Shown here one piece after another: positions 11,405 to 31,519 of a DNA stretch of 41,811 bases. The stretch is from NCBI GenBank assembly GCA_016214895.1, contig JACRMR010000020.1:1-41811 (forward strand), written 5' to 3'. Numbering within the stretch: position 1 is the first letter of the stretch; every line of letters begins with the position of its first letter. The DNA comes from a candidate division KSB1 bacterium (GTDB taxonomy: Bacteria; Electryoneota; RPQS01). A program made the translations under genes and the position numbers. A model generated the notes under the pieces. It was given only the letters and a program-made list of their open reading frames with translations. It did not search any database and had not been told where the DNA came from.

Positions 11405-13027
11405 CTATTTCAGCAGCACGAGTTTCTGTGTGAGCAACGGACGATTTTGAACTGCGTGCTTGGCGCGTAGAAAATAGATGCCGCTGCTGAGCTGGCCGGC
11501 ATTGAAAGAGATGTCGCGGGTGTGGATCACGGGGCCGTGGAAGACGTCGGCGATGCGGCGGCCTAGGAGATCGAAGATTTCGATTTGATAGATATCGGCT
11601 TCCGGTGCGCTGAAGCGGATGCGCGTTTCGGAATTGAAGGGATTGGGGAAGACGAGCAGCGAGCTTGCTCTGGGCAGCGGAATATCCGGCTCACCGGCAT
11701 CGCGAAAACTCGTATCGGGATACCACGGGTCGAAGCTCACATTACCCCGCACTTCGTCTCCCAAACCTGCCGGGTTCTCGCTCAGATTGTACGGTCCAGT
11801 TGCGTCACCCCAATAATTCAGAGTCGCGTCCAAGCTCTCGTGAGCGGCAAACACAGCGTAGGAGTTCATGCAGAATGTGTTTTCACGCAGCAGATGCAAA
11901 TTACCGAGCGTATCGACAGCCACCACAGCCGCTGAAGCCGGGGAGATAGCGCTAAATCGATTTCGTCGCAGCTCCACGGAAGTGTGAAGTGTATATAGAT
12001 GCAGGCCTTTGACGTCGGTTGCTCCCGGTAGCGCTCCCTCACAACTGTCCATAGAGTTATTCTCAAACAGTACGCGCGGATTGGACGCTTCGACTTCATC
12101 GGTGATCGTAATCGGGATGGCGGAACCCTGGGAGACAAAATTGTGTCGCCAGTGATTGGATTGTACCGCGATCAGCGCCGCGGTCCGGGCAACGATTTCA
12201 AATGACGGTCCCGCGATCCCCAACCCGTTGAACCCGCAGTTCTCCACGACCGTCCGTCCAAGCGTGTACACATGGACCGGAGACTGCAAACATGTTCCCG
12301 GGCCGAAGCTGCAATTTCGCAGCACGTTTTCGGAGCGATAGAGACCAACCCAGCCGAGCTCGGTCAGGCCACTGAAACTACAGTTCTCGATGAAGGAACT
12401 ATCCAGCCCGCGCATTCCTCCCACGCAATGGCCTTCCACTCTACAATCTGTCGCCTGTAAGCGGCCTTGTGCAACGGCGCACCCATTGGTGACGTTGCGG
12501 AACACACAATGCGCGATGGTGACCGGAGTATGAAGATTGGGGGTCGTGTAGTCGATGCCGCCATAAGTGGAATCGAAGATGCATCGACGGGCCACAATTG
12601 GCTCGCCTGTCGCGTAGGCGATCCCGCCCGGACATAACATCCCGATGCGACGTGGGTACATCTGGCGGCGGTTAACAAAGCGGAAATCCAGTATCGAAAC
12701 CTGGCTTCCTGCTGGTAGATAAAGGCATGCCACGGTGTCGGACCCGGACAGGGCGGACGGGTCAATCACTGGGCGCGGATATTCGCCGGTGTCCGGATCA
12801 ACCTGCCCGCACAGCACAAACTGAAGCGGAGGCGCAACCAGCGCCTCCGCATACGTCCCGGTCTCGACCAGCACCGTGTCACGATCAGTCAGTGCCACGA
12901 ATGCTTCTTGAATCGTAGCGAATTCGGAGGGCACCCGCAAGGTATGCGCGTACCCGGAGCCCGCGACGAAGGCAATGATGCCAACTGCGCTGACAACTCT
13001 TCCGCGCAATATTACCAGGCGGGACAT
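11405..13027 (-). CDS. Secreted beta-helix protein with C-terminal sorting domain, copy 1
   Basis: A 540-residue exported protein. A signal peptide (MSRLVILRGR, then a hydrophobic stretch ending 'GYAHT') precedes 'VPSEFATIQEAFVAL', the usual opening of right-handed parallel beta-helix proteins. Many short Asn- and Cys-containing repeat strands follow ('ENNSMDSCEG', 'RRNRFSAISP'), then 'NYWGDATGPY'. The last 80 residues ('VFPNPFNSETRIRF', 'FDLLGRR', 'LSSGIYFL', 'KLVLLK') form a type IX-like sorting/anchoring tail. ATG 13027 is chosen to start at the signal peptide; it overlaps the upstream gene by 16 bp, so translation is probably coupled. Function is likely surface-associated or extracellular; carbohydrate binding is a guess. 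Confidence 0.85.
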   Translation of the reverse strand: MSRLVILRGRVVSAVGIIAFVAGSGYAHTLRVPSEFATIQEAFVALTDRDTVLVETGTYAEALVAPPLQFVLCGQVDPDTGEYPRPVIDPSALSGSDTVACLYLPAGSQVSILDFRFVNRRQMYPRRIGMLCPGGIAYATGEPIVARRCIFDSTYGGIDYTTPNLHTPVTIAHCVFRNVTNGCAVAQGRLQATDCRVEGHCVGGMRGLDSSFIENCSFSGLTELGWVGLYRSENVLRNCSFGPGTCLQSPVHVYTLGRTVVENCGFNGLGIAGPSFEIVARTAALIAVQSNHWRHNFVSQGSAIPITITDEVEASNPRVLFENNSMDSCEGALPGATDVKGLHLYTLHTSVELRRNRFSAISPASAAVVAVDTLGNLHLLRENTFCMNSYAVFAAHESLDATLNYWGDATGPYNLSENPAGLGDEVRGNVSFDPWYPDTSFRDAGEPDIPLPRASSLLVFPNPFNSETRIRFSAPEADIYQIEIFDLLGRRIADVFHGPVIHTRDISFNAGQLSSGIYFLRAKHAVQNRPLLTQKLVLLK

Positions 13028-13554
13028 GCCGCAGTTGGAACATAGACCCGGGCCTCGGCTTTGCAATCACAAAGCGTGCAATACAACACGTCGCATTTGT
13101 GTAGCCCGACCCTGAACTCGTAGACGTGATTCTGAACTAATGGTACCCCGTTGGTCGCGCGATAGCACCCGGACTCGCAGTGTCCGCCCTGGTCGAGCAC
13201 GGTAGTGCAAGTCCAGACTTGGCCCGTGCCTGTATCAGTCAATTTCGCGCATGTTATACAATTGTGGCATATTGATTGGTCGCACTTGACGTTCTTGCAT
13301 TCAAATTTGTAGTTATCCGTGCAGGGAGCGCTGAACGTCGTTACAACATCCCCCGCGGCACTCGAACACGTTTGACTTGCGTCGCAGGCGTCATCGACTA
13401 AGTCCCAACAGACGTTGCAGTCCGGGGAGTCGGGCTGCGCCAAACCGGTCTCGGACATTGCCATCAAGCAGCCCGCGATCGTCACGAGGCCAAGCGCCTT
13501 TACTCGCCCGTCCCTGAAGGCAGCGGCAATTGCCGAAAACAAGATGTACTTCAT
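13012..13554 (-). CDS. Small Cys-rich secreted protein of unknown function
   Basis: A 180-residue protein with an N-terminal export signal (hydrophobic 'ALGLVTIAGCLMAM', cleavage probably after 'TGLA'). The mature part is very rich in cysteine, about 18 residues, in clusters such as CNVC, CHNCITC and CDVLYCTLCDC. These could form disulphides outside the cell or, less likely, bind metal. I know no family match. ATG 13554 has AAGAGG 6-7 bases upstream and a promoter at 13610-13638. The stop lies inside the start region of the beta-helix gene (16-bp overlap), so the two are expressed together. The arrangement repeats at 15541-17701. Confidence 0.75.
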   Translation of the reverse strand: MKYILFSAIAAAFRDGRVKALGLVTIAGCLMAMSETGLAQPDSPDCNVCWDLVDDACDASQTCSSAAGDVVTTFSAPCTDNYKFECKNVKCDQSICHNCITCAKLTDTGTGQVWTCTTVLDQGGHCESGCYRATNGVPLVQNHVYEFRVGLHKCDVLYCTLCDCKAEARVYVPTAACPAW

Positions 13555-15540: not shown

Positions 15541-17265
15541 CTATTTCATCAGCACAAGCTTCGCGGTCGCGAGGGGGCGATTGTCAAGACCGGCTTGAAC
15601 GGTCGCGAAATAAACACCGGAAGCAGCATCCGCAAGATCAATTCGAACGTCCCTGCTCGTGACGACCGTCCCTTTCCACGCATTTCTCACCCGTTGGCCC
15701 GTCACCGACGTCAACGTGATCGCGTATTCGCCCGGCAGCCCCACTTGCACGGTTAGTGTTGCGGAGTTATTGAATGGATTCGGGTAAACGGACACGGACG
15801 TGGAGGACGGAATCCATGCCGGCGGTCGGGAGCGCCCAACCGCAAACACCGTGTCTTCCGCCCAAGGTCGAAACAGGACGTCACTCCCGATGCGGTCACC
15901 GAGGCCAGCGGAGTTGCTGTCGGGTTCGTACGGACCGGAGGGATCGCCCCAATAGTTCATGGTAAAGTCCATGGGCTGCGCCGGATGAGGGTTGTTGGAG
16001 CCGACGGCGCCGGGGAAGTTGTTGCGAAAGATGTTGTAGTGTCCGACGATGTTCTCGCTATTGTAGCGGAGGATCCCGCCGCACGGGGTGTCGAAGCCGT
16101 AGGTCGTGCTGCAGGCTTCGATCAGGTTGTGTTCAAAGACGAGCGGATTCGAATTCTGCACGAAAGCGCCGACACCACTCGACGGCCCTTTGCAGTTGCG
16201 GAAGATGTTGTTCTCGAAGCGTCCGCGATAGAACTGGGTATGGAAGCAACCCTCGCCGACCCACCCGTGCTCACCGCCGAGCACGGTCATATTCTCGAAG
16301 GTGTTTCCCTCGACAATCAAGTTGAACAGATTCCGGCCGTCGCTGCACAAGATGGACCCTGTTCCGTACACCAGATTGTCCCGAAAGACGTTATCGCGGA
16401 GGGTGACATCGTCTTCATCAATCATGAATAACGCCCCGAAGAACGGGTCCGTTGCGTGACAGCTCGCGATCGTACATCCTTCAACGACCAGGTCACGGCC
16501 AAAGCTAACGAGCACGACAACGCCCGCGAACACGAGCCCCTCGAACATGCAGTTCTTAATCTCGCACGTCGTACCCGCACCGATTTCGATGCATGGCCCA
16601 ATCGCGGACTCTGACTCGGGGTTAGGCTTGAAGGCATTGTCTTCGATCCGGGATGGTTCGCTCCACGCCCAATTGTCAACCGAGATTAGATCGCCTTCAA
16701 AGTGATTGTCCTCGATTCGATTCGCGCGAAATAGTACTGAGCTGTGCATGAACAAGCCGACGAGGTGAAAGCTACATGAGTTTTCGCGCATGATGTTGTG
16801 CTTGATCACGGGGGAGTTGTCCACCACGTGGAACACGCCCCAGGTTGTCTTCCACTCCCCGAAGTACGGAAAACGCGTGCCATGGCCGCCGGTCAGCGTG
16901 AATCCGGACACGACATTCCCATCGACACAAAGGGTGTCCATTGTGATGAGCGTAGCGGTATCCTGGTTGGCAAAGGAGTTTCCGTCGATCACGGTTCCGT
17001 AGATATCCGCAGAATCGCCGGAAAGCTCGTAGTGGCTCATCAAGGTCAGGCGGTGCTCCGGGAAGCGAATCAACTCAGGATACAGACCGCGATCTACGAG
17101 TATGGTGTCCTCCGGTTGGGAGGCCGCCATAGCTTCCACGATGGTGGCATGGTCGGCGGGGACATTGCGGACGAAGGCCAGGGCAACGCTCGGGGGAAGA
17201 ACGGCGACCAATAGACACAGGGCGGCGGGCAGGAACGCCCACCGCCCCGAGCTCAGGGAGCGCAT
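15541..17265 (-). CDS. Secreted beta-helix protein with C-terminal sorting domain, copy 2
   Basis: A 574-residue exported protein similar in plan to the one at 11405-13027. It has a signal peptide (hydrophobic 'LPAALCLLVAVLPPSVALA'), then 'VPADHATIVEAMAASQPEDTIL', many parallel-beta-helix coils with Asn ladders ('RDNVFRDN', 'VEGNTFENM', 'ENNIFRNC'), 'MNYWGDPSGPYEP', and a C-terminal sorting tail ('VYPNPFNNSATLTV', 'SVTGQRVR', 'ASGVYFATV', 'AKLVLMK'). The ATG at 17265 lies one base after the stop of the upstream gene, so the two are co-translated. It is probably displayed on the cell surface through a type IX-like route. The ligand or substrate is unknown. Confidence 0.86.
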   Translation of the reverse strand: MRSLSSGRWAFLPAALCLLVAVLPPSVALAFVRNVPADHATIVEAMAASQPEDTILVDRGLYPELIRFPEHRLTLMSHYELSGDSADIYGTVIDGNSFANQDTATLITMDTLCVDGNVVSGFTLTGGHGTRFPYFGEWKTTWGVFHVVDNSPVIKHNIMRENSCSFHLVGLFMHSSVLFRANRIEDNHFEGDLISVDNWAWSEPSRIEDNAFKPNPESESAIGPCIEIGAGTTCEIKNCMFEGLVFAGVVVLVSFGRDLVVEGCTIASCHATDPFFGALFMIDEDDVTLRDNVFRDNLVYGTGSILCSDGRNLFNLIVEGNTFENMTVLGGEHGWVGEGCFHTQFYRGRFENNIFRNCKGPSSGVGAFVQNSNPLVFEHNLIEACSTTYGFDTPCGGILRYNSENIVGHYNIFRNNFPGAVGSNNPHPAQPMDFTMNYWGDPSGPYEPDSNSAGLGDRIGSDVLFRPWAEDTVFAVGRSRPPAWIPSSTSVSVYPNPFNNSATLTVQVGLPGEYAITLTSVTGQRVRNAWKGTVVTSRDVRIDLADAASGVYFATVQAGLDNRPLATAKLVLMK

Positions 17266-18930: not shown

Positions 18931-20229
18931 TTAGAACCGGATCCCGGCTTCGAGACTGAGGGAGGTCTCGCCGTCGCGATTGATCTCCCAGCTTGCTTCG
19001 ACCACGTGCACGTACGGCGCCCGGACCAGCAGGCCGACGGCAGCGGCGAAGCCGTCAACGCGCGTGCCGTCCAGTTGTAACTCGAATCCCTCCGCGGCAA
19101 TCAACCCGCTGACGCCCCACGGCAATCGCTTTCCGTAGCTGCCGAACGCGGGGAGGGAATAGGTGGATTCGCGGAGTAGCGGAAAGCGGAATTCGGCCTC
19201 ACCGGAGAGGTAGTTGGCGGCCTCAGCTTTGCTCGTTCGATAGCCGCGAAAACCGCGATTGAATCCGGAGTAGTAGTGCGACCACGCGGGCGTGGAGTTC
19301 GTGGCCGTGCCACCGGTGGCGCGTAACGCGATGACCGGCGGCCGATGTTCATCGCGAAGGGGCCACATTCCGGGGGCTGCCCAATAGCCGCGCAGCTCGG
19401 CACTGGTGCGCACGAAGTCGGCGGTTCCGACGACGAGATTGGTCAACGCGCGCGCGTAGGCTCCGCGCGCCGGATACCATTCGAGATCGCGTCGATCCAG
19501 CACCGCGAACGGCGAGCACCAGACGGTGTAATCGGTTTTGCCCTCCGCCGGGAGGTCAGTGTCCTGGATCACGTGTTGGTAGCGGAGCTCGCTGCCGACG
19601 CGGGAGCGCGCGCCCTGGCGCGTCGCGACGGACACGCCGATTCGATTATCCCGCAGGGAGCGACTCGAATCGAGCACGGCGCTATGCCGATCCGAGATCT
19701 TGAGGCTTTGGAAGAAGAGTTCCGTAGCGATCGGCAGCCGCGGCGAGAGCCAGCGGGTAGCATAGCCGCCGGTGACACCGGTGTTGGTTCCGAACTCGGT
19801 CATTAACCAGATGCGGCTGGCCGCTCCGCGGAAGTTGAGATCGAGACCGCCGAGCATCACGGCGGCACGCTCGAAGAAGTCCTGGACTCCGCGTACGTCG
19901 GCGGGCCGGCCCTCGGTAAACGCCACGGAAACAATCGGGATGTAAGGCCAGGACTCGGTGACCGAAACGCGCACGCGGCCCGCGGAGTCCGCGGCGATCG
20001 AGACATCGTTGAAGATGACCAGATTGTTCAGGCGATTGCGCGCCTGCACCAGTTGCGCTTCCGCGACGGTATCGCCGACTGCGAACTCCAGTTCGCGGAG
20101 CACGACCCATTCCCGGGTTCGGTGCAGGCCGTCGATCTTCAGCTCGCGCACCGTTATCGCGCCGTGAGCGACCCCTGCAACCAAGAGGCTCAGTAGGACC
20201 AGCAGTCCAACGCGCCGCGGAGATTTCAT
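18931..20229 (-). CDS. Small Omp85-family outer membrane protein, single POTRA
   Basis: A 432-residue protein with a signal peptide (MKSPRRVGLLVLLSLLVAGVA), one POTRA-like unit ('ITVRELKIDGLHRTREWVVL ... VRVSVTES', about residues 25-100) and a beta-barrel ending in Phe ('LSLEAGIRF'), as expected for BAM-recognised outer membrane proteins. BamA has five POTRA domains and TamA three, so it is neither. The ATG at 20229 forms an ATGA overlap with the tamB stop and has AGGTGG 7 bases upstream; an ATG 6 bp earlier is possible. The position directly after tamA-tamB suggests it works with TamB, perhaps as a second outer-membrane exit. That is inference. Confidence 0.78.
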   Translation of the reverse strand: MKSPRRVGLLVLLSLLVAGVAHGAITVRELKIDGLHRTREWVVLRELEFAVGDTVAEAQLVQARNRLNNLVIFNDVSIAADSAGRVRVSVTESWPYIPIVSVAFTEGRPADVRGVQDFFERAAVMLGGLDLNFRGAASRIWLMTEFGTNTGVTGGYATRWLSPRLPIATELFFQSLKISDRHSAVLDSSRSLRDNRIGVSVATRQGARSRVGSELRYQHVIQDTDLPAEGKTDYTVWCSPFAVLDRRDLEWYPARGAYARALTNLVVGTADFVRTSAELRGYWAAPGMWPLRDEHRPPVIALRATGGTATNSTPAWSHYYSGFNRGFRGYRTSKAEAANYLSGEAEFRFPLLRESTYSLPAFGSYGKRLPWGVSGLIAAEGFELQLDGTRVDGFAAAVGLLVRAPYVHVVEASWEINRDGETSLSLEAGIRF

Positions 20230-23200
20230 CGCCATTCCACCTGAAACACGGCTTTGATTTCGGAGGCATCCTTGCCGTACTGCAACGCGCTGAGTTTCAG
20301 CCAATCGAGCAGCCTGTACTCGACGGTGACCTCCTGCCCGCTCTGAATGCTCTCCACCGGTTGCAGGACGCGGACGAACAGGCGGTCCGTCACGTAGGAA
20401 CCCACTTCGAGCGATCCCTGCGTGAGATTCCCTTGGTCCGAAGCGCGGTATTGCAGCAAGTCCAATCCGGCCATTTTGCCGACCACGGACGAGAGCTGAC
20501 TGAGTCCCGCCGCGGCGATCTGCTCCTGGAGTCCGCCGCCATCTCCGTCGGTTGAGGGTACGAAAGCCTGAATCAGGGCATAGATCACTTCGGCCGCGGT
20601 CATGCTGTCGCCGTCCGCGGTGGTCCCGGACAGCTCCGATCTCGTCTCCAGGAGCGTGCCGGAGAGACTGACCGAAAGCTGCTCGTCGTGGATGGACGTG
20701 TAGAAGGCGCGGATCGCCAGCTCGGGATTCGTGATGTCGCCTTTGAAACTGACGCGCCCGGAGTCCTCGGGGACGCGGAACTCCTTGCCCAGGACTTCCA
20801 CGGTTCCCTTGCGAACGAGAATGTCGCCGTTGATGTAAGGCTCCTCCCAGGCGTTCTTGTAAAGCCACAATTCGCCCGCCAACTCGACGTTGACGCCGCC
20901 GCCGCGCAGCCACATGTTGCCGGGGATATCGATGTGAATGGCATGGGACATTGGTCGATAGATCCGATCCGCCAGGGAATTGGCTTGCGCGGTGGTATCG
21001 CCGCGCAGCCGCGCGACCTCGCTTGCGACGTCAATGGCCTCAATCTGCTTGGTGGTCGCTTGTGTGATGCGATAGAGCGCTTCGCGGAAGCGCAGATCTC
21101 CGGTCGCGGTCAGCGAATCCAACGGTCCATGGAGTATTACATTGCCGTCAAGCCGGGCCTGGATCTGCCGGGAATTCACGGCCTGAAAGTTGTCGAAGTT
21201 CAGATTCAAGGCGAGGCTTTCCGGGGCGGGAAACGCCATCACGGCGGAACCGTCGCCGCGGACATGGCCGTCCGCTTCCACGTCCAAGCGACTGACGCGC
21301 AGCGTATCGCGGTCAACGTCGAGGGTGACGTTTGCGTTTTCATAATTCAGGCCATATCGCTGGTCACGATAGCCGCCATTCTGCAACCGCAACTGACCGG
21401 ACCAACTCGGGATGGCCGGGGAACCGAGAATGAGGAAGTCACCACTGAGCTCGCCGGTCACCGTGGTTCCATAGGGCAGGATCGGATCCAACGCAGCCAG
21501 CGTCTGTCGCGTGAGTGTGACGGTGCCGAACATCGGCAGGCTGTCCAACAGTTGGAATCCGCCGTCGAAGGTCAGGAACGCCGGCAGCGTGGCATGGCCG
21601 AATGCCAACGAGTCCGCCTCGCGGATCATGAGCAATTCCAGGTCGGTCGCCGTGGACGACGTCGAAGCGTTGACTATCACGCGATCGAGCACGGGCGTGC
21701 CGCGAACCACCACGGTGTCGAGCGTCAGGGAGAAGTCGCCGGCGAGATTAGAATCGGGTCCCGAGAACTGAGCGCGAATATTCAGGACCGCGTCCGGCAG
21801 TTTGCGCTTCGTGATTTCCGCAATTCGTGAGAGGCGGATGGCCGACAGCTCGACGGCGAAATCCTGCTCACCGGGCCGCGCCAGCGTGCCCGCGGCCAGG
21901 AGCGATCCGAAGGGCGACTGCACACGCAGGGCATCCAGCTCCACAGTGGCACCCCGGAACGTGACGATGGTGGTTCCTTCCGTTTTCCAGATGGCGCCGA
22001 ACGCGAGCGCAGCAGCGTGCGTAAGGATCAGCCGGAATTCCCCGGGTTCGGTTTGCACGCGCAGGTCGCTGGTGAGCTCGATCGAGTCGGCCCTCGCCCA
22101 GACGCGCAGGGTCACCCCAAGATCCTCGAGCGTACCATCCGCGAGCACCGACAGTGAGTCGATCCGCTGTCCCCTTGCCTCGATTCGGCGCGCGCGCGCC
22201 ACGGCGCGGAGCGAGCGTTCGCTCAAATTGAAATCCTGAAGGCGAATTGCAATTTCGCGAACGGAATCCGCGCCGAGCGAAAGCTCCGATGCGCGCAGGT
22301 CTCCGGCCAGCCAGACAGCCGACGAATCTTGCGGCCGAAGTGAAACTACTCCGTGCAGATGAGCCTCAAGCGTTCCGGTCAGCGAGTCCAGAATGGGGAA
22401 GGCCGTTGCGAGCGGCCGAAGTCCCGAAATCCGCGCTCCGGGAATGTCGAGCTTCCAGGTTGCGGAATCCGATAGCGCTCCGTAAGCCGACATCACGACC
22501 GGGAATCCATAGGCCCAGACCCGCGCGGTGTCGAGCGAGAAGCTGACGGCATCGGACATGTGCGCGACCGCACTCAAGGAGTCAATCCGATAGGTGCCGA
22601 ACTGCAAAACGCCGAGTTGAGCGGATACGGCCAGCGTGCGCCGGTCGGAGCCGAAGTTCTGCATCGTGCACATCAATTTACCGGACATCGGTGAGAGCGA
22701 GTCGGGAATGTCCGGCAACAGATGGTGAAGCAGCAATTGCTCGACCGTTGCGCGGAATTCGAGATCACTTGTGCGCGGATCGAATCCGAATACGGTAATC
22801 TCAGCCGCGAACGTTCCGCGAGCGGCGCCGCCGTGAATTTCGGCGCGAAGCATCGAGTCGGCGGTGGTTGCCCGGAGCTTCAGCGCGGTCAGGTCATAGC
22901 GTCCGTACGTGATGGAATCGAGATTCGCTGACACCGTCCAACCGTTGAGCGCATCAGCGGTTCCGGCGTTGTGAAGGGCAACGGTTCCGCGCACGGCAAG
23001 TTCGGTGGTGTCGGACCAGAGGCTCGAAGGCAATAACGGGTCAAAACTAATTTCGCCGGCCAGCGCGACACCGCGCGGGGGGAAGGGCAGCTCGACCGCC
23101 CCGTGCAATCGCCCGACGTGCGGACTCGCGATTTCAAATCGGGTCCGGAGCGAATCGTCAGCCGTTGCGTATTGCAGGTGTCCATTCAACAGACCGACCG

Positions 23201-23909
23201 GAATCAGCGGTGTCGCGAGCGACGCCGCAAATGCGGAATCGAGCAGGAACCCGACGGTGCCGGAGCATGACGGCAGGGAGTCCAGCAAGCCGATCTTGCC
23301 GCCGGCGTCGATGCTGAGCTGGGCCGGATCGTCGAATGTAATACTATAGTCCAACGCGGCAGTCTCATAACGGAGACTGCCCGACAGCAACCAGCGCTCG
23401 CTGCGATAGCTGAAGAGGGTGTCAAATGCGATCGCCGTGCAATCGGCGCGCACCGCAAATTCGTCGATCACCACCTTCCAGTCCGACGTGGCGGCAGCCG
23501 GGACCGTTTGGGGCACACGCGGCGCGAGCGCGGCGGCAATATTCGCCGCGCGGCTGCTATCGAAAGCAATGTCGGCGCGAAACCCGGAGACGGTGAGCAA
23601 TCGAATGTGCGCAACGTGGTCGGGCAGTTCCGCCAGTGCGACTTGCGCACGCAACGTATCGAACCCGGCGATGAACCCGCCCCGTTCATCCAGCAGGCGC
23701 ACGCCGGCAAGCTCCAGCTCGCCGTTCCAGCGCGCGTGTACCGATGTGAACAGCAGCTGACCGTGAATTCGCCGGTTGACGATGTCCAGCGCACGGTGAG
23801 CCGCATAGGTCTGGACGGCACGAGTCAACGCAGCCGCGGCCAAGCCAACGACCACGGTCAGGAGTGTCAGGGGGAGCCAGAGCAGGCCGATGCGCAGCGC
23901 GCGCTTCAT
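20226..23909 (-). CDS. tamB: TamB-like inner-membrane/periplasmic bridge protein
   Basis: A 1227-residue AsmA/TamB-family protein. One N-terminal membrane anchor ('IGLLWLPLTLLTVVVGLAAAAL') is followed by a very long run of repeated beta strands (taco-shaped hydrophobic groove in known TamB structures). The C-terminal TamB domain is recognisable ('LWLYKNAWEEPYINGDI', 'SLSGTLLETRSELSG', 'GSYVTDRLFVRV', 'VTVEYRLLDWLKL'). TamB proteins bridge inner and outer membrane and, in E. coli, move phospholipids outward together with YhdP and YdbH. The start overlaps the tamA stop as TAATG and the stop overlaps the next start as ATGA. Length matches E. coli TamB (1259 aa). Confidence 0.9.
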   Translation of the reverse strand: MKRALRIGLLWLPLTLLTVVVGLAAAALTRAVQTYAAHRALDIVNRRIHGQLLFTSVHARWNGELELAGVRLLDERGGFIAGFDTLRAQVALAELPDHVAHIRLLTVSGFRADIAFDSSRAANIAAALAPRVPQTVPAAATSDWKVVIDEFAVRADCTAIAFDTLFSYRSERWLLSGSLRYETAALDYSITFDDPAQLSIDAGGKIGLLDSLPSCSGTVGFLLDSAFAASLATPLIPVGLLNGHLQYATADDSLRTRFEIASPHVGRLHGAVELPFPPRGVALAGEISFDPLLPSSLWSDTTELAVRGTVALHNAGTADALNGWTVSANLDSITYGRYDLTALKLRATTADSMLRAEIHGGAARGTFAAEITVFGFDPRTSDLEFRATVEQLLLHHLLPDIPDSLSPMSGKLMCTMQNFGSDRRTLAVSAQLGVLQFGTYRIDSLSAVAHMSDAVSFSLDTARVWAYGFPVVMSAYGALSDSATWKLDIPGARISGLRPLATAFPILDSLTGTLEAHLHGVVSLRPQDSSAVWLAGDLRASELSLGADSVREIAIRLQDFNLSERSLRAVARARRIEARGQRIDSLSVLADGTLEDLGVTLRVWARADSIELTSDLRVQTEPGEFRLILTHAAALAFGAIWKTEGTTIVTFRGATVELDALRVQSPFGSLLAAGTLARPGEQDFAVELSAIRLSRIAEITKRKLPDAVLNIRAQFSGPDSNLAGDFSLTLDTVVVRGTPVLDRVIVNASTSSTATDLELLMIREADSLAFGHATLPAFLTFDGGFQLLDSLPMFGTVTLTRQTLAALDPILPYGTTVTGELSGDFLILGSPAIPSWSGQLRLQNGGYRDQRYGLNYENANVTLDVDRDTLRVSRLDVEADGHVRGDGSAVMAFPAPESLALNLNFDNFQAVNSRQIQARLDGNVILHGPLDSLTATGDLRFREALYRITQATTKQIEAIDVASEVARLRGDTTAQANSLADRIYRPMSHAIHIDIPGNMWLRGGGVNVELAGELWLYKNAWEEPYINGDILVRKGTVEVLGKEFRVPEDSGRVSFKGDITNPELAIRAFYTSIHDEQLSVSLSGTLLETRSELSGTTADGDSMTAAEVIYALIQAFVPSTDGDGGGLQEQIAAAGLSQLSSVVGKMAGLDLLQYRASDQGNLTQGSLEVGSYVTDRLFVRVLQPVESIQSGQEVTVEYRLLDWLKLSALQYGKDASEIKAVFQVEWR

Positions 23910-25765
23910 TAGAACGGCGCTCCGAACGAGAAATGAATTGCGTAGGGACGGTCGCCGAAGGGATTCGGGCGAAGTTGGTAGCCGTAATCGACGCGCAGCG
24001 GTCCGACGAGGGTGACAAAGAGCAGGCCGATACCCGCCGACGGATACAGATTGCTCGGTTGCACGCCATCCGGCTCACTCCAGACGTTTCCGGCATCGAC
24101 GAAGCCCGCGAGACTGACGGGTCCCCAGACGTTACGGCGCAGCTCGGCGGTCAGGCTCAGCATCAGATTTCCGCCCAGGATGGTTTTCACGTTTCCTGCG
24201 GCTCGTGGCGATAGTCCATCCATCCTCCAGCCGCGGACGGTGGAGGGACCGCCCAAGGTGAAGCGTTCAAACGACGGTGTTTCCGCGGAGTCATGCAGCG
24301 GCCCCATCACCCCGGCGTCGGCCTTTCCGGCGAGGACCGTAAATCGACCCTGGGGTATCAGCACCTTCGTTTGTATAACGGATTTCCAGTAGCGGTAGAA
24401 CACGCGATAGGCGGCGCCGGATTCACTCAGGGTGATCCCGACGAAGTGGCCTTTGCGGGGAACGAGCGGATGATCACGGGTGTCCCAGCCGAGCGAAACG
24501 GTCTCGATGGATTTGGTGAAGTGGATGGTCCCGAGGTCCGTCCCAGATTCATCTTTCTGATCGGTCAGCGTACGACCGGCTTCGTTGGAAACGGAGACGC
24601 GGGCCTTCTCGGAGAGATTCATCGAGAAGATCGTCGTGGCGGTGCGGTCTTCGACGATCGCGAGCGGGCTGCTTTCGCGTGTCCAGGCCGGCACGATCGT
24701 GAGGTCGGTGCGATTCCACGGGACGTGCGGATAGAACAACTTGAGTTTTGCCTCGCGCTGGAACTCCGCATAGACGCCGGATAACGTCATGCGGCGTCCA
24801 TGTCCGAAGAAGTTCAGATCGGTAAATTCGACGTCGCCGCGCGCCCGTTGCACGGAGTGATAGCCGGCTCCGTAGCGCAGCCGGTAGCGATTGCCCTCTT
24901 CGGTGGCGACGATGACGGGGAGTGTATCTCCGGGAGCGGAGAGATCGGGGCGAACGGTCACGTAGCGAAACGTTTCGAGGCGCACGAGGTTTCGTCGCGT
25001 GAGTTCGAGCTTTGCCGGCGAGTAGGGTGAGTACGGGGCGTAGGCGAGTTCGCGGCGGGCCGTGGCCTCGCGCACTTGCCGAAGACCGGTGACCGTAGTC
25101 CTGCCGAGGTAGCAGAAGTGTCCGGGGAAGAGGGTGAACGTGACGTGCCCGGTATTGGCCACGCTATCGACGGCGGTTCGCGTTTCCACACGCGCGCGGG
25201 CGTGTCCGATCGTGCGCAATTTGTACGCGAGTGTGTCGGCCGAGGTTTTGATGGCGGAGGTTGAAAACCGCTTGCCGATACCGATCGGCATGAGGGCGGA
25301 CCAGCGCGCGGAATCCACACCCGCTCCGGAATCGCTGCCCATCACGATGTTCCAGTTGCTGACGATCGTCGGCTCGCCTTCGCGAATCTCCACTTGCAGG
25401 CGGAGTTCCTCGCGCTCGGGGTCGGGAAACACGCGTCCGGCAACTTCAATGTGGAGGAAGCCTTCGCGGGCATAGAATCGTTCGACCCGCACGACATCGG
25501 CGGCGAAATCGTCAGCGAAGAAGATCGTGCGACCGCCGAGCCGGACGTATCGCCGCAACCAGGTGGGCTTTTCGGTGGCCATGACGTCCAGCAACTCGGC
25601 CCGTGAGAAGCTGTGAATTCCGGGGAATTCGATGACACGAATACGCCAGCCGTTGAAAGCCTGCCAGCGGTCGTAATCGTCGGGGTTCAATCCGGCGAAA
25701 ACGAGACTGACAGCTCCGAGCAGCGCGAGCAGGACACAGGGGAAGAGTCGTGGCGGACTCAGCAT
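23909..25765 (-). CDS. tamA: TamA-like Omp85 outer membrane protein
   Basis: A 618-residue Omp85 protein with a signal peptide (LFPCVLLALLGAVSLVFA), POTRA repeats up to about residue 290 ('VIEFPGIHSFSRAELL', 'GRTTVTGLRQVREATARRELAY') and a 16-strand-type barrel with the lid-loop region 'GGPSTVRGWRMDGLSP' (the VRGW/VRGF motif of Omp85) and 'GNVWSEPDG'. It ends in Phe ('HFSFGAPF'). The first ATG is at 25765; a TTG two codons earlier is possible. A perfect inverted repeat (25770-25797) lies directly before the start and no Shine-Dalgarno is visible, so initiation may be structured. Overlap with tamB (TAATG) marks it as TamA, not BamA. Confidence 0.88.
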   Translation of the reverse strand: MLSPPRLFPCVLLALLGAVSLVFAGLNPDDYDRWQAFNGWRIRVIEFPGIHSFSRAELLDVMATEKPTWLRRYVRLGGRTIFFADDFAADVVRVERFYAREGFLHIEVAGRVFPDPEREELRLQVEIREGEPTIVSNWNIVMGSDSGAGVDSARWSALMPIGIGKRFSTSAIKTSADTLAYKLRTIGHARARVETRTAVDSVANTGHVTFTLFPGHFCYLGRTTVTGLRQVREATARRELAYAPYSPYSPAKLELTRRNLVRLETFRYVTVRPDLSAPGDTLPVIVATEEGNRYRLRYGAGYHSVQRARGDVEFTDLNFFGHGRRMTLSGVYAEFQREAKLKLFYPHVPWNRTDLTIVPAWTRESSPLAIVEDRTATTIFSMNLSEKARVSVSNEAGRTLTDQKDESGTDLGTIHFTKSIETVSLGWDTRDHPLVPRKGHFVGITLSESGAAYRVFYRYWKSVIQTKVLIPQGRFTVLAGKADAGVMGPLHDSAETPSFERFTLGGPSTVRGWRMDGLSPRAAGNVKTILGGNLMLSLTAELRRNVWGPVSLAGFVDAGNVWSEPDGVQPSNLYPSAGIGLLFVTLVGPLRVDYGYQLRPNPFGDRPYAIHFSFGAPF

Positions 25766-25769
25766 AAGC

Positions 25770-25797
25770 AATTACAGCCCATAACTGGGCTGTAATT
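25770..25797 (-). promoter_or_regulatory. Perfect 11-bp inverted repeat before tamA
   Basis: AATTACAGCCC and GGGCTGTAATT flank six bases. In the mRNA the hairpin ends four bases before the tamA ATG, where a ribosome-binding site would normally be. No T-run follows, so it is not an intrinsic terminator. It could be an operator dyad or an RNA hairpin controlling tamA translation. Confidence 0.6.
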
Positions 25798-25818
25798 AGC
25801 TGAATTTCAACGGGAAAG

Positions 25819-27390
25819 TCAAGCCTCGCTGGGGCGCAGGTGTCGCGGAGTGTGGGGGGCGAACCAGTGTCTGCCGGCAAGGAATTGGATCCACTCGGCC
25901 GCCAACGCCTCGGCTTCGTGAACACCGCCCGCGGAACGGACTTCACTGGTCAATTGGTCGAGGCCGGCGATGGCGGCTTTCATTCCGTCCGGGTCCGGCA
26001 GGTTCTTGTTGGCGAGTGCGGCGGTGAGTTGGAGCGCGATGACGTCGGTCATGGCTCGCACGAAGCTCTCCGACCACGAGGCGAAGTCGGTTTCCACGAT
26101 CTGGGCGAGCGTCCGGCCGGCTCGCGAGACCTGTCCCTTGCGTTCGTCCACCACGGCGGAGTTTTTACCGGTCAAGCTCCCCACCAGACCGGAGCGCTTG
26201 CCTCCGCCATCGGGAAAGACCCTCTTTTCGTCAAAGCTCGACCCAATCTTTGCCGCCAGCGGCCGCGGGTTCCACTGCGCGATGTTCTCGGCGAAGCCGA
26301 TTCGATGTAGATCGACGCGGGAGGCGAGTCCGCCCAAGCCGTTGACGAACTCGCCCATGCGATCGGTGAGAAAAGCATTTAGTTTGGCGAATAGGGCGGG
26401 CAGCCCGACGGCGGCGAGATAAGAATCGCTGTCCGGACCCTTCTTTTGGGCATCCCAGAAGGCGACCATCGCCGGGCCACTTGCGCGAGCGACCACGTGC
26501 TCATCAATGGCGTTATGGAGGCCGTTCATCCAGTTTCGACGATACTGCTCCAGCGTTTGCTGAGCGACTCGCAGTTGGGCGGCATAGCGGTCGAGCGCGG
26601 TCTGGTACTGGCGGCGCCGCTCTTCGATTTGACCGATCAGGCGCTCCGCGACCCACTTCCACTGGGTGATGGCGCGCACGTCCTGCTCGTCGTCAGAATC
26701 GTTTTGAACCGACGCCACCTGATCGAACAATGCGCGGCGGCTGTCCTCAAACTCCAGTTCGGACACGGGGGTGATCCAGAGCTTCTGTCCGAGCGCCGTG
26801 AGTCGCGCGCGAAATTCAGTTGGCAGCTGTTCTTCCACGGCAAGCGCGGCTCGCTGATGCAGAAAAGTCTCCACGACGACCGGTCGTTCGAACAGCGGGA
26901 CGAGGGCGGCGGGATGCGGGATCCAGATCAGCCGCCAGGCCGCGTCGCCGAAGAGTCGCTGCTCGATGCGAATGACTTCGTCGCTGCCCAGATCGCCGCT
27001 CAGCAGCGAGGCGAGCGTATTGCGTGACACTTCGCGATCGGTCTTGCCGTAGTGGATTCTGATGGCTTCGACGCCGCCGCACTCCCAACTCCAGATGAGC
27101 GGGGACTCGGGCACGAGCACGGCATCGATCAACAGGCCGAACTGCGCGGCGGATTGTCGGACCCAGTCCGGGCTGCCGCCGCAAAACATCAGGCCCGGCC
27201 GTTGGTCACGTGCCCGCACGAGCGCATCGAGATCGGGCAGCGCGCAGCCGGTCTTGCGACAGATGGTTTGCAGCTCGAGCAGCGACGGGATGCTGCCCCG
27301 TTTGGACTGCTTTTCCGCCGCGTGAACAATCTGTTCGAGTAATCTGGCGGCCGCCGGAGCGGTCCGTTCAAACGAGCGCATTTCGATCAC
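25819..27390 (-). CDS. Unknown protein, possible GTPase-dead dynamin-like
   Basis: A 523-residue protein without signal peptide. I do not recognise a named family. By eye the N-terminal 230 residues follow the order of bacterial dynamin-like GTPases. A strand ends in 'LMFCGGSPDWVRQS' where G1 (GxxxxGKS) would be, then come 'VEAIRIHYG', a helix-rich stretch, 'WRLIWIPHPAA' where DTPG would be, and a 'KLWITPVSELE' strand. No nucleotide-binding residue is conserved, so it should not hydrolyse GTP. Residues about 230-300 are heptad-like helix ('IEERRRQYQTALDRYAAQL'), then a helical C-terminal half with a mildly hydrophobic 'FVNGLGGLA' stretch. It starts with GTG at 27390 in a GTGA overlap with the upstream stop, so the two are coupled. 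Confidence 0.6.
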   Translation of the reverse strand: MIEMRSFERTAPAAARLLEQIVHAAEKQSKRGSIPSLLELQTICRKTGCALPDLDALVRARDQRPGLMFCGGSPDWVRQSAAQFGLLIDAVLVPESPLIWSWECGGVEAIRIHYGKTDREVSRNTLASLLSGDLGSDEVIRIEQRLFGDAAWRLIWIPHPAALVPLFERPVVVETFLHQRAALAVEEQLPTEFRARLTALGQKLWITPVSELEFEDSRRALFDQVASVQNDSDDEQDVRAITQWKWVAERLIGQIEERRRQYQTALDRYAAQLRVAQQTLEQYRRNWMNGLHNAIDEHVVARASGPAMVAFWDAQKKGPDSDSYLAAVGLPALFAKLNAFLTDRMGEFVNGLGGLASRVDLHRIGFAENIAQWNPRPLAAKIGSSFDEKRVFPDGGGKRSGLVGSLTGKNSAVVDERKGQVSRAGRTLAQIVETDFASWSESFVRAMTDVIALQLTAALANKNLPDPDGMKAAIAGLDQLTSEVRSAGGVHEAEALAAEWIQFLAGRHWFAPHTPRHLRPSEA

Positions 27391-29945
27391 TTACCGGCTC
27401 CCGTCAAGGGCAACCAGCGCAGGGCAAATTGAACGGCAATGCCCAGCGCCGCGAGCAGCGCGAGCATGGTGAAGACCTTGTGATTTTCCAGCTTTTGTTC
27501 GGCCAGACTCTGGTTCATTTCATTGCGCAGGGTCTGGCCGCGTTCGTTCAACGTGTTCTCCATGAACTCAAACTTGGAGGCCAGCAGGCTGGCGAGTTCT
27601 CTGCGGAAGGCGGGAAGTTCTTCGGCCTGCAACGCTTTCAGTTCAGTCGCCACGCGGTTAGCGGCCTCCCGCCCGGCATCGAATTTGGCGGCGGTGGCGG
27701 CGTCGAAGGCCTCGATCCGTTCACAGAGCGTTTCCGTCCGGGTCTCGGTCTCGGTTCTGACGTGCGCGAACGATTGCCGCATTTCCTCGAATCCGCCGTC
27801 GATGTGTTTGATGGATGTGCGCACGGCCTCAATATCGGTGGCGTGCTTTTCCATGCGCTTGTCGAGAATCGGATAATATTTCTTGGTCGCCGCGTTATCG
27901 GCGAGCAGCAGTTCGAGCTTCTCCTTGCTGAGCGACAAGAGATTCTGCGTGTCGCTGGAGATGGCGTTCAGCGCGATCTGGTCGCCCTGATGCAGCGACT
28001 GGTAAAGGTGCGCATAGCGGTCCAGCGCCTGCGGCACGGTGGCGATTTGCTTGATGAACGCGTCGGTGGCGCCATCGATGACGGTTTTGAGTCGCGCCGC
28101 ATTGTCATCGTAGTTCGCGCGGATGGCTTCGCGCAGCACGGCCAGCGCGGAGTCCTGTTTTGCCCGGAGCGCGGCCACATCGGATGACACCGCTTTGACA
28201 TGGCTCTCCATGGCGGCGGTGAAGGATGCACTCGAGGAGCGGAGGGCCTCGAGCTGCTCATCGAAGCGTTTGGAGCTATGCCCGATCAGGGATTGCAGAT
28301 CGCGTTGAAACTGTCCGCGATCTTTGTCCACGTCGCCGATTCGCGATTCGATCCCCGCGGTGCGCGTGAGCACCTCCTCCATCCGCTCATTCATGGTTTT
28401 GTGAATGAACTCGCGGAGGGATTCCAGCGTTTCCAGCCAGACTTCGGAGATCTGATGCAGCGTCTGCTGCGTTTTTTCGAAGTCGGCGCTGAGCGATCGT
28501 TCAATGCGTTCGCGCACGTCGCGCAGACCGTTTTCGATCTTTTCCCGTTGCGCGCGGCCGTCGGAGAGCGCCAGTTCGGTGGCGGATGTGGCGGCCTGTT
28601 CGGCGCGGGCCAGTGCGGCACCGAGCTGAGCGAACTGTTGCCGGTCGTCGTCGATCTTTTCGGTCAGTTGCCGATTTTCGGTTTCGAGCAGGCGCAGCGA
28701 TTGAAGCTGGGCGTCACTGAGCAGCCGTCCCTGCTCGCGCTGTTCGGCGGTCAGCGCTTCGAGCGCCGCCTGATTTCCGGCCATGCGTTCGCGGTTGGCG
28801 CGATCACTGTCCCGCAATTCGCGGAGGATGCTGTCGAGCTGGGCGATGGACTCGTAAATCTGGACACTATCGGAGTTCATGCGTTCGCTGTGCTTGCGCA
28901 TGACTTCGGTAAGATTCCGTTCGAGTTCGGACATGGCCCGTTGCACACCGGACAATTCCTGACCTTGCGAATCGCGCAGGGCGTCGATCTGATTGACGAT
29001 GCGGTTTTCGGAGGCACTCATGCTTGCGGTGACGAGCTCGGGCGAGATTTGCGGAACCGGAGTTCCCTCGTGGGAGGACGACTGCGCCGCGGCAATCGAG
29101 CCGCGCGCCTCCACCTGCGCGGTCACCAGAACCTGAATTTGATCGCGCAGCCGGGAGACGACCTGGTCCAGGTCTCCGCGCACCTTGGTACCGACGTCGC
29201 CCATCACGGCGTTGATCGTGCGATCGAGTTTGTCCAGCAGCTCGCCGCGGTCTTCGGAATCTCGCGAGAGGCGTTCACCGATTTCTTTGCGATAGCGTCT
29301 CAGCTCCTCGACGACCGTGGTCTCGGTCCGGGTCAGTGCGTTTCGCACATCCTCCGACATTTCCAGACTGACCGGCCCGGCCGGTACCTGTTGCTGGATG
29401 ATCTCGCGGATGACCGGTTCGGGGGATCTCGGCGCTGTCACGGCCAGCTGCTCCGATTCGGACTCGAGCTTCCTGAAGAGCGAGTCCATCTGACCGGAGA
29501 GTGCCTGGAGCCTGGCCTCCATTTCGGAGGTCACGCGTCCGATCGCGTCGCGGCTGGCCGCGTTCTGCTCCTGCATGAGTTCGGTTTCGCCGCGAAGTGC
29601 CTGTTCGAGCTGGGAATGGGTGGAAAGCAGGTCGGCGACGACACCGCCGGCGCGTTCCTGAATGTCGGCGGCGTTGGCCTTCATGGCCATCTCGAGCTCT
29701 TTTACCCCCTCCAGCAATCTTGTCCCGGCAGGACCGAACACTTCGCGCAACCGGTCAACTCCGCGAGCAATCTGTTGCAGAGTTTCCTCAGAACGCTGTA
29801 AATTGTCAATGGCGCCGATCAGGCGGGCGAGTTCATCACGGAAGGCCGGAATAAACTTTTGTTCCGTAAGCTCTTGGCTGAGATTCTCGAGGAAGTTCTG
29901 GAGCGGTTCGACGAGTTCGAGATGGGATCCTGGCTTCGGTGTCAT
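27387..29945 (-). CDS. Large tail-anchored coiled-coil protein
   Basis: An 852-residue, nearly all-helical protein with heptad-like repeats and almost no Cys or Trp, ending in one hydrophobic segment ('VFTMLALLAALGIAVQFAL') and a short positively charged/neutral tail. This predicts a C-terminal membrane anchor with the coiled coil in the cytoplasm. No enzyme motif is visible. The fold recalls methyl-accepting proteins, EzrA or RmuC-like rods, but there is no MCP signalling hairpin and no nuclease domain. ATG 29945 is chosen because the helical register begins there; the upstream in-frame extension is Arg-rich and non-coding in character. It is first of the six-gene minus-strand run and overlaps the next gene (GTGA). 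Confidence 0.7.
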   Translation of the reverse strand: MTPKPGSHLELVEPLQNFLENLSQELTEQKFIPAFRDELARLIGAIDNLQRSEETLQQIARGVDRLREVFGPAGTRLLEGVKELEMAMKANAADIQERAGGVVADLLSTHSQLEQALRGETELMQEQNAASRDAIGRVTSEMEARLQALSGQMDSLFRKLESESEQLAVTAPRSPEPVIREIIQQQVPAGPVSLEMSEDVRNALTRTETTVVEELRRYRKEIGERLSRDSEDRGELLDKLDRTINAVMGDVGTKVRGDLDQVVSRLRDQIQVLVTAQVEARGSIAAAQSSSHEGTPVPQISPELVTASMSASENRIVNQIDALRDSQGQELSGVQRAMSELERNLTEVMRKHSERMNSDSVQIYESIAQLDSILRELRDSDRANRERMAGNQAALEALTAEQREQGRLLSDAQLQSLRLLETENRQLTEKIDDDRQQFAQLGAALARAEQAATSATELALSDGRAQREKIENGLRDVRERIERSLSADFEKTQQTLHQISEVWLETLESLREFIHKTMNERMEEVLTRTAGIESRIGDVDKDRGQFQRDLQSLIGHSSKRFDEQLEALRSSSASFTAAMESHVKAVSSDVAALRAKQDSALAVLREAIRANYDDNAARLKTVIDGATDAFIKQIATVPQALDRYAHLYQSLHQGDQIALNAISSDTQNLLSLSKEKLELLLADNAATKKYYPILDKRMEKHATDIEAVRTSIKHIDGGFEEMRQSFAHVRTETETRTETLCERIEAFDAATAAKFDAGREAANRVATELKALQAEELPAFRRELASLLASKFEFMENTLNERGQTLRNEMNQSLAEQKLENHKVFTMLALLAALGIAVQFALRWLPLTGAGK

Positions 29946-30241
29946 CGTGTAAGTCTGAGTGTGGTTGAGAATTACGGTCCTATTCCGGCCAAAGAAGCGC
30001 AAGGTAAGTACCAAGCGAGGTTTCCGAAAGGAAACGCGGGGCGGAGCACGGTCGCTCGACCGTCTGGTGGCACGGGTACGGGATTCGCAGGTTGGCTGAC
30101 GTCGCGGTCTTGCAACTTTCCGGCTGGTAAGCCTCTCGTAAACAATGAACCACGAGGCTCGACGGGCGTCAAATCGGCGAAATGCCAATCAATGTTTGGT
30201 CGTGTTAGACACAGTAAATAACTGTTTTGTACGAAACTCCT
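29946..30241. other. Divergent intergenic region with stable hairpins
   Basis: This 296-bp region separates the minus-strand coiled-coil/Tam operon from the plus-strand export operon. It holds GTTTCC-GAAA-GGAAAC (plus strand reading, a GNRA tetraloop) and ACGGTC-GCTC-GACCGT in close succession between about 30015 and 30065. I could not match it to a known riboswitch class, and no confident promoter was found for either side. Confidence 0.45.
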
Positions 30242-31519
30242 ATGAAATCGAAGAAAAAGCGCCTCTGGACCATCATCATCATAGTCCTCGTGATCGCGGG
30301 GGCGACTGTTGGAGCCTTGACCAGCAAGCGGAAGGACACGCGGACGGCGGTGACAACCGAAGGAGTCGAGTACCGGCGGCTGATCTCCACGGTTTCGGCC
30401 GAGGGCGAGGTTGAGCCGGTCGATCAGGTCAAGATCTCGGCGGAGATTCCGGGTCGGATCACGGAATTGCCGGTGAAAGAGGGCGAGATGGTGACGAAGG
30501 GTCAGTTCCTGGTCGAACTTGATCCCAAGACCTATGCCGCGAATCGCGAGTCGGCTCAGTCCATGCTTCGATCCGCGCGGGCTTCTCGCGACAAAGCCGA
30601 GGCGGACTTGAAGCGGGTTCGCGAGCTGGTAACCAAGGGCATGGCGTCGCAGGCCGATCTGGACGCCGCTCTGGCGGGATCGGAACTGGCGGCGGGCGAG
30701 CTTGATCGAGCGGTTGCGGGCGAGAAGAGTGCCCGGGAAAGCCTTTATAAGACGCGCATCGACGCTCCGATGAGCGGGACGATTTCGCGGCTGAACAAGG
30801 AGATTGGCGAGTTGACGTTGGGTTCGCAGTTCCAAGAGGACGTGATCATGGTCATCGCGGACTTGACGAAGATGCAGGTCCGCTCGCAGGTTGACGAGAA
30901 TGACATCACGGGGGTCAAGCTCGGCGATTCCGCGCTGGTCGAGATCGACGCGTATCCCGACACCTCGTTTCGCGGGATTGTGACCGAGATCTCGCAGAGT
31001 GCGACGCAAGCGGGCCAGCTGGGTTCGGAGCAGGTCGCCAAGAACTTTGACGTGAAGATTGCGATCGTCGATACGATTCTCGGGATTCGACCGGGGATGT
31101 CGGCGACGGTGGATATTGCGACGGACAAGCGGGATCACGTGTTGTCGGTGTCCTTGCAGTGCGTGGCCCTGCGCGACAAGGAAGAGGGCAAGGTGGTTGA
31201 GCTGACCGAGAAGAAGGAGAAGAAGTCGGCCCGTCAGGTTGCCGCGGAAGTAAAGTCGGGGACGGCGGACAGTTCGCTGTTCAAGCGCGAGCAGCCGCAA
31301 GAGGGGGTGTTCATTTTCGCCAAGGATTCAGCGGTATGGCGGCCGGTGCAGACGGGGCTCTCATCGGACCGCTATATGGAGATTCTCGGCGGCTTGTCCG
31401 AGGGTGACTCGGTGGTCAACGGTCCGTACAGCGTGCTCGCTCGCGATTTGAAGCACGGCGACAAGATCAAGTTGAAAGCGAAGGACGAGAAGGGCAAGGG
31501 CGCGAAGGGCGGCAAGTGA
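30242..31519 (+). CDS. HlyD/MacA-family periplasmic adaptor
   Basis: A 425-residue membrane-fusion protein of an ABC-type export pump. One N-terminal membrane segment ('LWTIIIIVLVIAGATVGAL') is followed by a biotinyl-lipoyl half ('AEIPGRITELPVKEGEMVTKG'), a helical hairpin (about residues 100-170), the second lipoyl half ('IDAPMSGTISRLNKEIGE') and beta-barrel domains. The C-terminal part carries an unusual charged insert ('EKKEKKSARQ') and a Lys-rich tail ('KLKAKDEKGKGAKGGK'). ATG 30242 follows a weak ribosome-binding region; a TTG five codons earlier is possible. It stops 12 bp before the ATPase gene. Together these form a MacAB-type system; the cargo is unknown. Confidence 0.88.
   Translation: MKSKKKRLWTIIIIVLVIAGATVGALTSKRKDTRTAVTTEGVEYRRLISTVSAEGEVEPVDQVKISAEIPGRITELPVKEGEMVTKGQFLVELDPKTYAANRESAQSMLRSARASRDKAEADLKRVRELVTKGMASQADLDAALAGSELAAGELDRAVAGEKSARESLYKTRIDAPMSGTISRLNKEIGELTLGSQFQEDVIMVIADLTKMQVRSQVDENDITGVKLGDSALVEIDAYPDTSFRGIVTEISQSATQAGQLGSEQVAKNFDVKIAIVDTILGIRPGMSATVDIATDKRDHVLSVSLQCVALRDKEEGKVVELTEKKEKKSARQVAAEVKSGTADSSLFKREQPQEGVFIFAKDSAVWRPVQTGLSSDRYMEILGGLSEGDSVVNGPYSVLARDLKHGDKIKLKAKDEKGKGAKGGK

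Follow-up and report, generated by a model that had tools for sequence, protein, structure and literature searches.

Here we describe a gene that very probably encodes a protein with the fold of the dynamin superfamily and without its GTPase motifs, as judged from structure prediction. The gene lies on a 41,811-nucleotide stretch of contig JACRMR010000020.1 (hereafter, the window), in a 3.2 Mb genome of 26 contigs from a candidate division KSB1 bacterium, and appears from comparison with relatives to have been kept across an order of bacteria about which little is known. The accepted picture of dynamins is that of membrane machines driven by GTP. A family of dynamins maintained without a GTP site would separate the role of the architecture (to assemble, tether and shape membrane) from that of the motor and, if the reading is true, would mean that the dynamin architecture can be of use without GTP.

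Predicted structure

The gene and the two parts of its product are as follows.

25819-27390, minus strand: predicted pseudo-GTPase dynamin-like protein (523 amino acids, GTG start; 10 full-length family members)
26698-27207, minus strand: predicted shortened Rossmann-like head replacing the dynamin G domain (residues 62-231; from the model elements, pLDDT and the match to mitofusin-1, 5gnr)
25927-26694, minus strand: predicted helical stalk (residues 233-488; from the model and structure comparison)

The protein was modelled with AlphaFold from an alignment of three sequences. The best model had a mean pLDDT of 71, with values of 70-92 per ten-residue block over residues 61-230; it came from one of five runs, the other four reaching 51-60. 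A Rossmann-like core, without which the dynamin reading proposed in a preliminary description of this DNA would fall, is indeed modelled within residues 50-230. The head starts with strand 66-70, helix 74-82, strands 99-105, 109-114 and 117-121 and helix 123-131, continues with strands 141-147 and 153-157, helices 160-166 and 170-177 and strand 179-185, and ends with helix 191-199, strand 203-207 and helices to residue 230. Helix 233-303 and the remainder of the helical stalk, to residue 488, follow. The modelled head, of about 165 residues, has no sixth strand.

When the model was compared with the PDB by Foldseek, BDLP ranked first (E 9.3e-9), IniA second to fourth, Cj-DLP among the top matches and LeoA 23rd, bearing out the resemblance to the G domain and stalk of bacterial dynamins that had been noticed by eye in the order of strands and helices, and giving the BDLP/IniA/LeoA-type top match that had been expected from it. 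All 30 matches at E<=0.001 belong to the dynamin superfamily, as do all 50 of the best rows. VIA-align matched the model to Fzo1 (Z 12.4, rmsd 6.6, 267 residues) and, over model residues 62-237, to mitofusin-1 (5gnr; Z 11.5, rmsd 3.2, 156 residues). A library of viral models gave five matches at E<=0.001, four of them named dynamins and the first-ranked one unnamed. A second model, built with another member of the family (32% identity to the window protein) placed first, had a pLDDT of 62.4 and was poorly modelled at residues 97-150; both models were built on the same three sequences and are, thus, not fully independent. Its significant PDB matches by Foldseek (6 of 6 at E<=0.001) again all belong to the dynamin superfamily; its stalk aligned with that of MxA (Z 10.0, rmsd 4.6, 180 residues) and its head with EHD4 (Z 7.1, rmsd 3.5, 132 residues). 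Since all 30 and all 6 significant matches fall in one superfamily, chance resemblance to dynamins is unlikely.

By sequence, the protein is isolated. Searches of Pfam, NCBIfam and PDB sequences gave nothing convincing for the window protein, for its nine full-length homologues or for the ten-member alignment, and PADLOC gave no match for the window protein. Weak matches to terpene synthase, PIN and Kv beta-2 varied between members or lay far under the cut-off and were set aside. Comparison of the family with 13 intact bacterial dynamins by hhalign gave a probability of 0.2-0.3% (E 0.19-0.25), no better than reversed controls, and comparison with all 29 dynamins gave 8.6% locally and 13.9% globally, against 7.0% and 11.3% for the reversed query. 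One local match to the 13, at residues 93-135, is in the register predicted by structure but is not significant. Because sequence profiles show no homology, the dynamin assignment rests on predicted structure: the model combines a Rossmann-like head of GTPase type with a long helical neck or stalk after it, and homology recognisable by Dynamin_N or by profile was not found.

The lack of a significant profile match could instead mean that the protein is no dynamin and combines an independent Rossmann-like domain with a helical bundle, or belongs to another TRAFAC-type group (EHD, Rag, septin). EHD and Rag structures are indeed listed, at lower Z, and a designed helical bundle (4uos) reached Z 12.2 on the stalk. 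As the designed bundle scores as high, the stalk match alone is weak evidence, an objection that spares the match of the head. We consider this alternative quite unlikely, given that the significant PDB matches of both models are without exception dynamin-superfamily proteins, with head and stalk in the same order.

Loss of the GTPase motifs

The model and a motif scan place the former nucleotide-binding motifs as follows.

27151-27180, minus strand: putative former G1/P-loop (residues 71-80, GGSPDWVRQS; only Gly71 kept)
26905-26922, minus strand: putative former G3 (residues 157-162, IPHPAA), just past strand 153-157
26755-26784, minus strand: putative former G4 (residues 203-212, KLWITPVSEL), the last head strand and the residues that follow it

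In the model, strand 66-70 leads through residues 71-73 to helix 74-82 at the usual place of a P-loop, and the end of strand 153-157 coincides with the place of DTPG. The two substituted motifs given in the preliminary description, GGSPDWVRQS for G1 and IPHPAA at the DTPG place, were located in the open reading frame at these positions, and the loss that they indicated proved to be family-wide. GxxxxGK[ST] is present in none of the 10 full-length members, and neither lysine nor Ser/Thr is found at the P-loop position in any of them; [NT]KxD is likewise absent from the G4 place throughout (0/10), the single NKLD of member L016 falling in the stalk. DxxG is absent from the G3 region of nine members, including the window protein, whereas DVEG stands there in L020, which has none of the other motifs. 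The G1, G3 and G4 motifs of an active dynamin GTPase were, thus, not found in the window protein, and members of the family most likely do not bind nucleotide, as far as motifs can tell.

Four residues are invariant in the family: Gly71 (the first P-loop glycine), Trp100, Trp152 and Trp156. A dynamin fold whose pocket has acquired new residues, such as the three tryptophans, might bind an unusual nucleotide or small ligand and act as a slow switch. The invariance of Gly71, the DxxG of L020 near G3 and the position of residues 62-81 among the better conserved stretches (0.41) would fit such a switch. The family, however, has no P-loop lysine or Ser/Thr and no NKxD/TKxD in 10/10 members, its G4 region is among the least conserved (0.23) and the model is without the sixth strand, so that we regard ligand binding of this kind as improbable. 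With the motifs lost throughout the family and the fold predicted, the observation of the preliminary description is confirmed and its interpretation, a dynamin-like protein that has lost its GTPase motifs, is supported by the models.

Conservation and selection

Two stretches outside the motifs stand out in the ten-member alignment.

27229-27288, minus strand: the family's most conserved stretch (residues 35-54), before the head; the best 20-residue stretch, with a mean pairwise identity of 0.58 versus 0.33 overall
26164-26226, minus strand: conserved Gly/Lys-rich stalk loop (residues 389-409); identity 0.48 over residues 391-410, with a low-pLDDT loop at 396-409

Conservation peaks at residues 35-54, 342-361 and 391-410. 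Residues 35-54 are a candidate contact site for the partner described below. The Gly/Lys-rich loop, which connects helices of the stalk, may be a lipid-contacting tip; helix lengths in the model would place it close to the distal end of the stalk, the site of the lipid-binding paddle in BDLP.

The loss of catalytic motifs is also what a decaying pseudogene of an ordinary dynamin would display. The ten full-length frames, however, are open, of 514-523 residues as aligned, and stand in a fixed gene order. In four pairs of homologues, moreover, third codon positions change most, and dN was 0.31-0.59 and dS 1.40-3.67, giving dN/dS of approximately 0.09-0.32, ratios that are rough because dS is at or near saturation. 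These ratios argue for a maintained pseudo-GTPase under purifying selection and not for a decaying gene, making a pseudogene extremely improbable. Predicted fold, motif scan and dN/dS together describe a fold maintained by selection with its catalytic motifs lost, the mark of a pseudo-GTPase.

Distribution

Of the 13 genomes that represent the window's order, which belongs to Zhuqueibacterota (KSB1), 11 contain homologues, full-length in 10; the other 26 phylum genomes searched (39 in total) gave none. One homologue lies on RPQS01000034.1, from a metagenome-assembled genome of candidate division KSB1, a name that a taxonomy lookup resolved to Candidatus Zhuqueibacterota of the FCB group. Named genomes gave no match to the single protein as query, the alignment as query led to two loci, and a profile search of 242 relatives gave no convincing homologue outside the order. 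The protein alignment consists of 10 rows and leaves out a 95-residue fragment (G008) and weak matches in G086 and G013, which were not recovered with the profile; a match in G228 (E 0.089) was ignored. In this alignment and in that of the partner, several rows are open frames cut back to the aligned region, so that the residues with which they begin may not be true starts. In G002 and G003, the only genomes of the order that gave no match, contigs break inside the coiled-coil gene or just before that of TamA, and absence of the pseudo-dynamin cannot be read from such broken contigs.

We also searched the phylum for an intact dynamin. Dynamin_N found no real dynamin in the 39 phylum genomes and gave two weak matches, which we take to be MnmE; the same search finds matches in 6 of 14 named control genomes, including E. 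coli and B. subtilis. A profile of the 13 intact dynamins gave partial matches only in the phylum genomes, covering at most 110 of its 609 positions. Separately, an MnmE-like frame of 642 amino acids (L053, G009:C73) has a long insert in its N-terminal part, presumably resembling a DUF559-type endonuclease-like stretch.

These searches bear on the possibility that the protein belongs to a heteromeric dynamin machine as its inactive half, with the active half supplied by a gene at another place in the genome, much as in Campylobacter DLP1/DLP2, where both halves are active. Bacterial dynamins are often paired, according to the part of PMC6104087 available to us, and several pairs of dynamin matches on one contig appeared in the search. 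With no real dynamin found by Dynamin_N in the 39 phylum genomes, and with the dynamin profile giving only the partial matches above, we judge a missing active half very unlikely.

A putative membrane-anchored coiled-coil partner

Directly upstream of the pseudo-dynamin gene lies a gene for a long coiled coil.

27387-29945, minus strand: partner, an 852-amino-acid coiled coil with a C-terminal anchor (best start, the ATG at 29945)
27420-27476, minus strand: C-terminal hydrophobic segment of the partner (residues 824-842; best 19-residue hydropathy 2.31)

The partner's stop codon and the pseudo-dynamin's start codon share bases in the sequence GTGA. The membrane-anchored coiled coil named as a partner in the preliminary description is no peculiarity of the window: each of the 10 full-length loci encodes a coiled coil with a hydrophobic anchor at its C-terminus. 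The coiled coil was detected in 13 of the 31 genomes searched, all 13 belonging to the window's order, and the hydrophobic segment is C-terminal in 11 of 11 partner sequences (the partner alignment covers 11 of the 13 genomes, two partial sequences being left out). The pseudo-dynamin family itself has no segment of transmembrane strength (best 19-residue means of 1.10-1.78). Within the partner, the first ~90 residues are strongly conserved, residues ~600-720 are conserved and the middle is variable. The partner matches no family convincingly, and none of the Pfam matches shown for the window's copy reaches the cut-off; matches to apolipoprotein, baculovirus PEP and ZorA were taken as coiled-coil composition.

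The TamA-TamB neighbourhood

Downstream of the pseudo-dynamin, the window encodes two envelope proteins, whose genes resemble those of a machine that builds the outer membrane.

23909-25771, minus strand: TamA-like Omp85 protein with POTRA repeats, the next gene downstream (Omp85 E 1.8e-38, POTRA E 3.4e-11)
20226-23909, minus strand: TamB protein (TamB E 2e-40)

An Omp85/POTRA protein, thus, stands beside a TamB-domain protein, as Pfam matches and adjacency show. The order coiled coil, pseudo-dynamin, TamA-like Omp85 and TamB is adjacent in 10 of 10 loci (the window and L014-L022), operon membership being deduced from spacing and order. TamA neighbourhoods in 11 genomes from other families of the phylum (L085-L094 and L099) contained no coiled coil, no homologue and no intact dynamin. 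TamB-type proteins contribute to lipid transport across the envelope. The idea that the pseudo-dynamin serves TamA-TamB, suggested by gene order, is possible, if doubtful; the constant neighbourhood is a lead on inner-membrane parts that may work with these envelope proteins.

Several other features of the region were noted. Another Omp85 protein (18931-20187, minus strand), smaller than the first and likewise carrying a POTRA repeat, comes after TamB, placing two Omp85 proteins around one TamB; it follows TamB in 9 of the 10 loci, the sequence of the tenth being cut off within TamB. Next to the coiled coil, 8 of the 10 loci carry a divergent MacA-MacB-type set, which is not found there in the two loci of the sister family. 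The stretch that separates the stop codon of the pseudo-dynamin from the start of TamA holds a hairpin (25770-25797, minus strand) with a perfect stem of 12 bp and a loop of 4 bases. It was considered as a conserved control element and rejected, its sequence not being kept in nine relatives; L015 and L020 have other hairpins, of 9-10 bp, at this junction. Promoter and terminator scans of 25600-30400 stayed at chance level. Elsewhere in the window, two beta-helix proteins (11408-13066 and 15544-17265, both minus strand) carry Por_Secre_tail sorting domains, a sign that the genome may encode a type IX secretion system.

A possible mechanism

We propose that the shortened Rossmann-like head, without P-loop lysine or base-recognition motif, together with the dynamin-like stalk, would work without nucleotide. 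The tail-anchored coiled coil encoded upstream would recruit the pseudo-dynamin to the cytoplasmic face of the inner membrane, where the pseudo-dynamin would assemble via its stalk, with the Gly/Lys-rich loop touching lipid. The result would be a fixed scaffold or tether and not a GTP-driven motor, and, as the constant neighbourhood suggests, this scaffold might serve envelope transfer at TamA-TamB sites. We give about even chances to the protein forming a scaffold together with the coiled coil, a reading in which both partner binding and membrane contact are inferred. The full proposal, a dynamin lineage now obligately nucleotide-free and held by a coiled coil as an inner-membrane scaffold that organizes TamB-type envelope transfer, is speculative and probably wrong in at least some part.

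Comparison with known systems

The top structural matches, BDLP of Nostoc, IniA of Mycobacterium, Cj-DLP1/2 of Campylobacter and LeoA of E. coli, consist of a head and a helical stalk, as predicted here. These proteins have GTP-binding motifs, whereas the window family is without them and has a head of about 165 residues, the sixth strand of which is missing in the model. In the pairing of a tail-anchored coiled coil with a dynamin-type protein, the arrangement is analogous to that of Mff, a tail-anchored dynamin receptor that recruits an active GTPase; the analogy would lie in the pairing.

In E. coli, too, a dynamin-like protein is encoded together with another protein: in the pair RdcA/RdcB (YjdA/YjcZ), RdcB binds the GTP-dependent RdcA, as described in the available part of PMC6510439. 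RdcA, however, keeps GxxxxGKS, which the window family is without, and needs GTP hydrolysis; RdcB, unlike the long anchored coiled coil of the window, is small and soluble. Dynamin is not mentioned in the available part of PMC7159879. Cj-DLP1/2 tethers liposomes with or without GTP, according to the available part of PMC6104087, providing a precedent for nucleotide-free tethering. Pseudo-GTPases, that is, GTPase folds without catalytic motifs, include CENP-M and domains of p190RhoGAP, which act as scaffolds or interaction domains; those named in the available part of PMC10211241 are, however, eukaryotic small-GTPase folds and not stalked dynamins. Going by the models, the known kind to which the window protein would belong is the dynamins, and the variant that it would represent is a family-wide pseudo-GTPase.
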